NCBI RefSeq assembly: GCF_003600895.1 | Contig: NZ_QYRP01000002.1 | Coordinates: 1,860,001-1,924,000, forward strand | DNA length: 64,000 nt | Reading direction: 5' to 3' | Source of the DNA: Nocardioides cavernaquae | GTDB taxonomy: Bacteria > Actinomycetota > Actinomycetes > Propionibacteriales > Nocardioidaceae | Part shown: positions 23,841 to 26,426 of the stretch, piece after piece | Layout of the letters: each line of letters begins with the position of its first letter | How positions within the stretch are numbered: the stretch's first letter is position 1 | Made by a program: the position numbers and the translations under genes | The notes under the pieces: generated by a model | The model's input: only the letters and a program-made list of their open reading frames with translations | Told to the model about the DNA's origin: nothing | Databases searched by the model: none

Positions 23841-23846
23841 CCCCGC

Positions 23847-23934
23847 CGAATGGCCAGGTTTGGCGTGCCGAGCCGTCAGGTGTGGCGCGCCGAAAGGTCA
23901 GGTTTGGGGTGCCGAAGGGTCAGTTTCGGCGCTC
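23847..23934 (-). repeat. 22-bp tandem intergenic repeat, cluster 3 (four units, inverted)
   Basis: Four 22-base units at 23847-23868, 23869-23890, 23891-23912 and 23913-23934, in the orientation opposite to the other clusters (CCGAAAGGTCAGGTTTGG on the plus strand). It starts seven bases after the ABC exporter stop codon. Confidence 0.85.
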
Positions 23935-24008
23935 GCCAGAAAACCGGTCGACGGCCTGCCGGGCGCGGCGTACCGTCGAAGGACACGGGAAAGGAGGTGA
24001 TCGACGCA

Positions 24009-24047
24009 ATGCATGCTTCGAGGACACGTGAGGTGGCTGCGCGCTAG
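24009..24047 (+). CDS. 12-codon ORF with a full-length Shine-Dalgarno sequence
   Basis: The ORF reads MHASRTREVAAR then TAG. Upstream, AAAGGAGGTGATC (23990-24002) is complementary to the whole 3' tail of 16S rRNA, 13 bases without a mismatch, a far stronger site than any other in the window. The gap from GGAGG to ATG is 11 bases, a little long. A large nested hairpin follows 58 bases after the stop. The arrangement suggests a regulatory leader peptide, a toxin-like micropeptide or an sRNA locus. I do not recognise a family. The MFS gene begins 300 bases downstream, but another repeat cluster and an independent promoter lie between. Confidence 0.6.
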   Translation: MHASRTREVAAR

Positions 24048-24105
24048 CAGCCGATGCTCTGACTCCGGTCGGCATCGCCTCTTGCGAATCCACCGCAGTC
24101 CCCGC

Positions 24106-24157
24106 GACCCGCAGGCCCCGGCTGTTGTCCTGGCCGGACAACACAGGCCTGCGGGTC
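24106..24157 (+). terminator. Nested hairpin downstream of the 12-codon ORF
   Basis: GACCCGCAGGCC (24106-24117) pairs with GGCCTGCGGGTC (24146-24157). Inside lies TGTTGTCC paired with GGACAACA around TGGCC. The two stems of 12 and 8 bp are separated by a small internal loop. GTTCCCATTTC follows. A terminator is likely; an attenuator or structured sRNA is possible. Confidence 0.7.
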
Positions 24158-24166
24158 GTTCCCATT

Positions 24167-24254
24167 TCGCCAGCGCTGACCTTTCGCGCCGCCAAACCTG
24201 GCCTCTCGGCATGCCACACCTGACCTCTCGGCGGGCCACGACCAACATCTCGGC
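24167..24254 (+). repeat. 22-bp tandem intergenic repeat, cluster 4 (four units)
   Basis: Units at 24167-24188, 24189-24210, 24211-24232 and 24233-24254 in plus orientation; the middle two fit the consensus best. With the inverted cluster at 23847-23934 it brackets the 12-codon ORF. Confidence 0.83.
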
Positions 24255-24312
24255 GGGGGAGCGGGACGGGCGTCACAAAGGAAAAGGTTGCGGAGCGCAA
24301 CCAAATCTGCAA

Positions 24313-25901: not shown

Positions 25902-26347
25902 GCACCCAGCCACTGCTCGCCCTCGAAGCCCAGATGCGGTTGATCGGCCGTCGCGTACGCCGCGTGGCCGCGGACCGCGCGGCGGCGGTCGACCCGTCGC
26001 TCGGCGAGGTCGGGTACGCCGTGCTCGAGAGCCTGCACCGCCTCGGTCCGTCCCGTCAGCGTGACCTCGTGTCCGGTCTGTGCGTCGAGAAGGCAGCAGT
26101 GAGTCGAGCGGTCACCCAGCTGGCCGAGCTCGAGCTGGTCGAGCGGATCGACGATCCCCATGACGGTCGTGGCCACCAGCTGACGCTGACGAAGCTCGGT
26201 GCCCGCCGGATCGGTGGCGTGCTGGCCGATCGCCGCGCGATCTACGCTGCCCGGCTGGCGGACTGGTCGCCCGACGAGATCGCTGCGTTCGTGGTGATGC
26301 TCGAGCGCTACAACGCCGCGCTCGAAGGCTCGGGCCACCAGAACTGA
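25898..26347 (+). CDS. MarR-family regulator of the MFS operon
   Basis: A 149-residue winged-helix regulator. The recognition part is SGLCVEKAAVSRAVTQLAELELVERI near residues 60-85, followed by the wing DPHDGRGHQLTLTKLG. It overlaps the MFS stop as ATGA and is therefore co-transcribed with the pump, so binding to the operator at 24313 would give negative feedback. Its stop codon lies within a 22-bp repeat. Confidence 0.92.
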   Translation: MSTQPLLALEAQMRLIGRRVRRVAADRAAAVDPSLGEVGYAVLESLHRLGPSRQRDLVSGLCVEKAAVSRAVTQLAELELVERIDDPHDGRGHQLTLTKLGARRIGGVLADRRAIYAARLADWSPDEIAAFVVMLERYNAALEGSGHQN

Positions 26348-26400
26348 CCTCTCGCCGCACCAAAGGTGGCCTTTCGGCCCGCCAAGCCTGGCCTTTCGGC
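26335..26400 (+). repeat. 22-bp tandem intergenic repeat, cluster 5 (three units)
   Basis: Units at 26335-26356, 26357-26378 and 26379-26400. The marR stop codon (26345-26347) is the TGA of the first unit, so the last four codons of that gene are repeat sequence. It separates convergent genes. Confidence 0.85.
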
Positions 26401-26426
26401 TGGGGGAGAGGGAGAGTGGGAAGGGG

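Follow-up and report, generated by a model that had tools for sequence, protein, structure and literature searches.

The window (the whole stretch of DNA analysed, 64,000 nucleotides) contains on its forward strand a unit in which a candidate promoter, ACACGGGAAAGGAGGTGATC, an ATG at 24009, 12 codons, a TAG at 24045, a linker and a terminator stem follow one another. Its features, including the pairing strands discussed further on, are the following:

23948..23976, + strand, candidate sigma-A-like promoter, TCGACG (-35) N17 TACCGT (-10), read from the sequence
23983..24164, + strand, RNA of Rfam family RF02471 (Ms_IGR-5), 101.3 bits over the whole model (1-184) against a gathering threshold of 45 (cmscan)
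23984..23987, + strand, 5' strand of helix P0, CACG, pairing with 24027-24030 (covariation)
23990..24002, + strand, Shine-Dalgarno (SD) sequence, 13-nt exact complement of the 16S tail, AAAGGAGGTGATC (pattern search and 16S gene ends)
24009..24047, + strand, micro-ORF of 12 codons plus TAG (ATG 24009, TAG 24045-24047), MHASRTREVAAR
24022..24026, + strand, 5' strand of the pseudoknot, GGACA (codons 5-6), pairing with TGTCC 24126-24130 in the terminator loop (covariation)
24027..24030, + strand, 3' strand of P0, CGTG, made up of codon 7 plus the base that opens codon 8 (covariation)
24030..24035, + strand, internal SD-like motif GAGGTG in codons 8-9, separated by 6 nt from the last sense codon (ORF comparison)
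24032..24040, + strand, 5' strand of helix P3, GGTGGCTGC (codons 8-11), pairing with GCAGTCCCC with one mismatch in the window (covariation)
24035..24052, + strand, local hairpin spanning the stop codon, GGCTGC gcgcta GCAGCC, competing with P3 (minimum-energy fold)
24086..24091, + strand, GAATCC between P2 and P3, conserved in Actinomycetes and not retained in the phylum to which the Truepera record belongs
24095..24103, + strand, 3' strand of P3 in the linker, GCAGTCCCC (covariation)
24105..24158, + strand, terminator hairpin with a 13-bp outer stem (24105-24117 / 24146-24158) and a loop containing TGTCC (24126-24130)

The initial annotation had described a 13-base site, a micro-ORF and a 12+8 bp hairpin, all of which are present. 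In the terminator, the outer stem pairs CGACCCGCAGGCC (24105-24117) with GGCCTGCGGGTCG (24146-24158), and the inner 8-bp hairpin pairs TGTTGTCC (24123-24130) with GGACAACA (24136-24143). In the other loci read, CCGG...loop...CCGG-like inner stems take the place of the latter. Relatives have a TTGnnn-N17/18-TAnnnT motif whose spacing from the RNA equals that of the candidate promoter in the window. The surroundings also contain a 22-bp unit (approximately AGGTCAGGTTTGGCGNGCCGA) in tandem, with three copies before the RNA (23844-23931), three inverted ones behind it (24183-24260) and three more near 26329 (26329-26406); with up to three mismatches it is found at 76 places in the genome, the reversed control giving none.

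Since both 16S genes of the genome end with ...GGATCACCTCCTTTCT, the 13-mer is the exact complement of the 16S tail; the following base, a G at 24003, no longer matches. The perfect complementarity claimed for this site is thus exact, and in the 3.47-Mb genome the sequence occurs at only two other places, i.e., the two 16S genes. Allowing one mismatch adds a single place genome-wide, and the reversed control pattern has none. In an alignment of 74 sequences from four groups, whose members were partly found by the SD motif, the nine SD columns are invariant. This invariance, together with a complementarity that spans the whole free tail, might indicate a guide or quality-control RNA for the 3' end of 16S rRNA, whose function would be tail pairing and not translation; this reading is nevertheless very unlikely, as it leaves the conserved in-frame start and stop described below unexplained.

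The Rfam family and its distribution

The family RF02471, named after M. smegmatis and labelled actinobacterial, is present in a single copy in the genome. It shares sequence and terminator with the window locus (101 bits), while its model contains neither the ORF nor P0, P3 and the pseudoknot. The RNA had been presented as possibly undescribed; it is instead RF02471, and transcripts of its relatives are already published. A passage of PMC10454040 reports the transcript of M. smegmatis, where IGR-5 is listed as ncMSMEG15794c with a citation of Li et al. 2013; passages of PMC8079986 and PMC8780764 report, respectively, RNA-seq support in S. lividans and a transcription unit coinciding with the RNA in S. 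avermitilis. A search in a collection of open-access papers yielded none that deals with an ORF or a function of the RF02471 RNA. Within this known Rfam family the window locus is nothing unusual; the family is far more interesting than the text of its entry.

A search with the Rfam model found RF02471 in 118/149 genomes of the same family (31 without a match), 220/345 of the class (125 without a match) and 70/396 of the phylum; a lack of conservation in neighbouring species, which the initial annotation had named as refuting its idea, is contradicted by the first of these figures. A model of the 5' domain constructed from the 74 sequences (R1, with rough E-values) reaches 150/396 genomes of the phylum, leaving 246 without a match, versus the 70 of RF02471, and extends to other phyla: 40/199 genomes in the phylum of a Bryobacterales record (Acidobacteriota), 39/111 in that of a Truepera record (G822) and 20/47 in that of an Eisenbacteria record (G823). 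The 5' domain was seen in all 35 inspected among the 79 matches of the Bryobacterales and Truepera phyla; the 20 matches of the Eisenbacteria phylum were judged by the ORFs and P3 partners of nine new anchorable loci. A 24-base gapped pattern occurs at at least 80 loci, and the matches listed include Bryobacterales, Solibacter, Terriglobia, Truepera and Eisenbacteria records; viral contigs gave no exact match to one such pattern. An Rfam scan with E up to 0.5 gave matches in 6/8 and 8/17 sources, all of them RF02471 and most below the cut-off. As judged from these sequence matches, the family extends to Acidobacteriota and to the phyla of the Truepera and Eisenbacteria metagenome-assembled genomes (MAGs), which is a new finding.

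Some records carry a doubtful label. The locus L221, titled "Chlamydiae", shares its 5' domain with L196, an "Actinobacteria" record of the same project. Two loci titled "Acidobacteria", L189 and L216, look like the Acidimicrobiia/Thermoleophilia type. Since all three are likely misbinned, the claim on the phyla does not rest on them.

Conservation of the frame and drift of the peptide

Among the 94 Actinomycetes loci read, 93 have exactly 12 codons, with ATG (44), TTG (39) or GTG (10) as start; the remaining one (L049) has ATT in the usual start place, preceded by an ATC one codon before. The stop is TAG in 91 cases, TAA in two and TGA in one. The spacing between SD and start differs by a few bases among these loci, and the frame is therefore tied to the downstream fold. 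A canonical start in frame with the fold-fixed stop is present in 131/135 Actinomycetes loci; three of the four misses are anchor errors (TTG starts are actually there) and the fourth is L049. In the other actinobacterial classes, 51 canonical and 52 near-cognate starts were found in 108 loci, five having neither. The corresponding figures are 26 and 2 of 28 in Acidobacteriota (the two near-cognate rows being L189 and L216), 0 and 15 of 15 in the G822 phylum (ATT, ATC or ATA, with CTG in two), and 9 and 1 of 10 in the G823 phylum, where two loci, L338 and L344, are doubtful. For the two remaining frames, the canonical starts number 30/269 in Actinomycetes, 27/211 in the other actinobacterial classes, 0/44 in Acidobacteriota, 0/24 in the G822 phylum and 0/15 in the G823 phylum; counting near-cognate codons as well, these values become 52/269, 50/211, 1/44, 2/24 and 2/15. 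Near-cognate starts weigh less, because such codons are common by chance; CTG, ATT, ATC or ATA is the only start in 69/161 loci of the four groups other than Actinomycetes, plus 1/135 in Actinomycetes. The length of the micro-ORF across groups is mostly 10-20 codons.

In some lineages near-cognate starts (CTG, or ATT/ATC/ATA) occur lineage-wide, 7-9 nt after a very strong SD; this is the case of L101-L137 and L180-L257 (Acidimicrobiia/Thermoleophilia-like) and of L319-L333 (G822 phylum). The start codon of infC, AUU, is the classical example of a start that is sensitive to IF3; the fidelity of initiation may thus belong to the design of this RNA.

The encoded peptide behaves differently from its frame. 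Single-base differences between close relatives (counted over pairs of relatives, which are not independent events) are non-silent in 329/470 cases and silent in 141 at codons 2-4, the neutral expectation being 0.79. At codons 7 and 10, 36 and 47 changes, respectively, are non-silent and none is silent (0/83 together), and codon 12 shows 123 non-silent and 15 silent changes. In the G822 phylum the ORF crosses the same RNA in a different frame (INRCEMTSGGARRG). The amino-acid conservation suggested as a check was thus not found, and the ORF and codon comparisons revealed no conserved peptide of the kind expected of a dual-function sRNA. GAGGTG is unchanged in 131/131 ORFs of 12 codons, which were located by GAGGTG itself, and is invariant in the 74-sequence alignment, whose members were likewise located by the motif.

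A functional micropeptide ending with (T/P)REVxxx might still be proposed, given that REV recurs in Acidobacteriota and Actinobacteriota and that the changes of codon 6 are nearly all silent (121/126, with five non-silent). However, the same bases (GAGGTG, CGYG and GGAC) are explained by pairing and by the SD, codons 5, 7, 10 and 12 change mostly non-silently, and the peptides, mostly 10-20 codons long, are read in a different frame in some lineages (LLQTSGGDCS, INRCEMTSGGARRG), which makes a peptide function quite unlikely. The changes of codons 5 and 7 track the RNA and not the protein. A secreted signal peptide, one of the initial suggestions, does not fit with ORFs of only 10-20 codons whose products differ in length and even in frame.

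The comparison of the loci shows that five phylogenetic groups preserve a frame running from start to stop, whereas the start codon, the length, the reading frame and the peptide vary; that a short ORF is kept across these relatives and its peptide is not is a new observation. Since the ORF is kept but the peptide is not, being read by a ribosome seems to be the point. The idea that ribosome occupancy itself matters is supported in two ways: an ORF with a structure-fixed stop is kept where the peptide is not, and passages of PMC4974804 report significant ribosomal reads, i.e., ribosome-protected fragments, on the homologues of M. abscessus and M. smegmatis. Frame conservation and the footprints on relatives argue for translation of the micro-ORF.

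As for the neighbouring genes, a rough gene caller was applied to 174 loci: the next downstream gene is co-oriented with the RNA in 65 of them and lies on the opposite strand in 97, no gene being called in 12. In 97/162 loci with a gene call it is therefore oppositely oriented, and the neighbour families change between clades; a constant co-oriented downstream gene, the mark of a leader or attenuator, was not found. As the downstream genes are mostly not co-oriented, the RNA appears to be free-standing. The proposal of a leader peptide for the next gene is not supported on these grounds, the RNA also having its own candidate sigma-A-like promoter and its own terminator. In the window the next gene, which encodes an MFS transporter, is co-oriented and lies about 190 bases further on, which could suggest that an attenuator or leader peptide serves this gene, but the opposite orientation in 97/162 loci, the variable neighbours and the failure to find an antiterminator strand competing with the terminator render it extremely improbable. 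The leader peptides and attenuators of trp and erm share with the RF02471 RNA a short ORF, a strong SD and a hairpin; the latter RNA differs in having no fixed downstream gene and no alternative terminator. Secreted peptide, leader peptide and attenuator were all rejected on the ORF comparison and the orientation of the neighbouring genes.

Covarying helices and terminator

In order to identify covarying positions, a MAFFT alignment constructed from sequence alone (174 loci, 173 distinct rows) was analysed with APC correction over 18,915 column pairs. The pairs of P0 rank 1, 2 and 6, those of P3 rank 3 and 4, those of the terminator 5, 8, 13, 15, 19 and 24, and those of the pseudoknot 22 and 37. 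Paired cells amount to 657/672 in P0, 1602/1716 in P3 (ten pairs) and 855/1027 in the pseudoknot (six pairs); in a set of 65 sequences (A2) the corresponding fractions are 96.8%, 94.7% and 92.6%. In A2, the whole structure, P3 and the pseudoknot beat all 500 shuffles in percentage of paired cells, double-changed cells and covariation score, and the signal falls when the strands are slid; some measures gave no excess over shuffles in this set, e.g., the number of double-changed pairs of P3 was matched in 82/500. In the 74 diverse sequences, 91.1% of the P0 cells are paired versus 61.7% after shuffling, while the numbers of double-changed pairs and of pair types were no higher than in the shuffles. 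An unguided RNAalifold run predicted P0, P1, P3 and the terminator. Covariation supports three helices that are absent from the Rfam model, i.e., P0, P3 and the pseudoknot, which are proposed here as new elements.

The presence of P3 outside Actinomycetes depends on how it is searched for. An ungapped test was negative in four groups (485, 445, 1721 and 126 of 2000 permutations as high), whereas an anchored, bulge-tolerant test gave 0/2000 permutations as high in Acidobacteriota, 0 in the other actinobacterial classes and 0 in Actinomycetes, 15/2000 in the G823 phylum and 73/2000 in the G822 phylum. Outside Actinobacteriota, the anchored test only suggests a P3 signal that is strong in Acidobacteriota, weaker for G823 and weak for G822. 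Concerning the pseudoknot, GGACC is found with GGTCC in 82/92 loci, and CGACC with GGTCG in 7/8 and with GGTCC in 0/8. It is missing in members with TGACC (2/17 have a partner) or AGACC (1/15), and 28 loci in this comparison are without NGACC. By sequence, the stop codon holds a constant position within a predicted fold that comprises P0, P3, a stem at the stop codon and, in Actinobacteriota and an Eisenbacteria-like lineage, the pseudoknot. In the window, the TGTTGTCC/GGACAACA 8-bp hairpin (24126-24143) would compete with the pseudoknot for the TGTCC of the loop.

Two further helices involve the SD region. The pairing of the GGTCC after the SD with the GGAC of codons 5-6 (P1) is possible in 728/865 cells, without covariation, and its bases also belong to the complement of the 16S tail; it is lost in the window. 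P1 and the pseudoknot, which share GGAC, would be mutually exclusive. The first helix of the Rfam consensus (SD with GCUGCC) is compatible with the relatives, pairing in 932/1038 cells (92.3% in the slide-test count), with no double change; its competitor P3 counts 97 double-changed cells. The 182-nt RNA of the window has a folding energy of -92.4 kcal/mol (z -4.1, 0/200 shuffles as low). Since its minimum-energy fold lacks P0, P3 and the pseudoknot, the fold model rests on covariation and not on the folding of a single sequence.

A possible ribosome-directed function

The constant parts of the RNA (SD, start-to-stop frame and GAGGTG) face the ribosome, and the pairing strands co-change; for this reason a ribosome-directed reading is favoured. 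We give about even chances to the view that this is a free-standing, transcribed small RNA, about 180 nt long, with the conserved task of letting a ribosome enter and of leading it to a stop fixed by the fold, which is opened on the way. Beyond the conservation, the covariation and the SD uniqueness established above, we infer docking, gating, retention at the stop and sensing or trapping, for which the following course may be envisaged. Subunits of 30S would dock on the SD loop by pairing through the 16S tail. The closed fold would start at about the mRNA-entry edge of the initiating ribosome and might slow or gate its entry. A ribosome passing through would melt the pseudoknot, P0 and P3, and would halt once the stop codon occupies its A site. 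The internal GAGGUG would then lie 6 nt upstream of the P-site codon, which is a good SD spacing, so that the anti-SD could hold the stopped ribosome. As the ribosome would melt the fold on its way to the stop, the RNA might exist in two forms, open (occupied) and closed (free), and might thereby act as a sensor or as a temporary trap of free ribosomal subunits.

A rather unlikely alternative is a dual-function antisense sRNA, in which the linker GCAGTCACC or the terminator loop would pair with target mRNAs and translation would merely unmask or degrade the RNA. It is true that P3 hides the linker behind the ORF and that the linker is conserved within Actinomycetes, but across groups the linker co-changes with the ORF strand, and in the G822 phylum it is quite different, unlike a constant seed. 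SgrS/SgrT and RNAIII/hld are dual-function sRNAs with a short ORF that keep both a peptide and a base-pairing seed. The RF02471 RNA resembles them in being a stand-alone sRNA with an SD-led ORF; in contrast to them, neither peptide nor seed seems to be constant.

The ribosome-directed reading may tentatively be taken further. It is known that 6S RNA binds RNA polymerase, and a passage of PMC10454040 reports the same for the mycobacterial RNA Ms1. The likeness to these RNAs is one of working analogy only, that of a folded RNA directed at one of the central machines of the cell; the sequence differs, and the machine would be the ribosome. The RF02471 RNA might accordingly be imagined as an ancient multi-phylum ribosome-directed RNA, the translation counterpart of 6S RNA, on which a free 30S, docked through the complement of the whole 16S tail, would lead to a single brief passage along the folded micro-ORF from a start codon that is weak or near-cognate. 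The proportion of RNA in the open and in the closed form would report or buffer the pool of initiation-competent ribosomes, and the peptide would be a by-product; we regard this extension as possible, though with clearly less than even chances.

What persists from phylum to phylum is the SD, the internal SD and a frame from start to stop; the peptide and most stems change. If the ribosome-directed view holds, what Rfam lists as a function-less actinobacterial sRNA would be a widespread RNA having the ribosome as its conserved partner, as well as an example of a start-to-stop frame under selection without its peptide. It would also provide a genetically simple route to how bacteria, from Streptomyces to the Truepera lineage, sense or store free ribosomal subunits.
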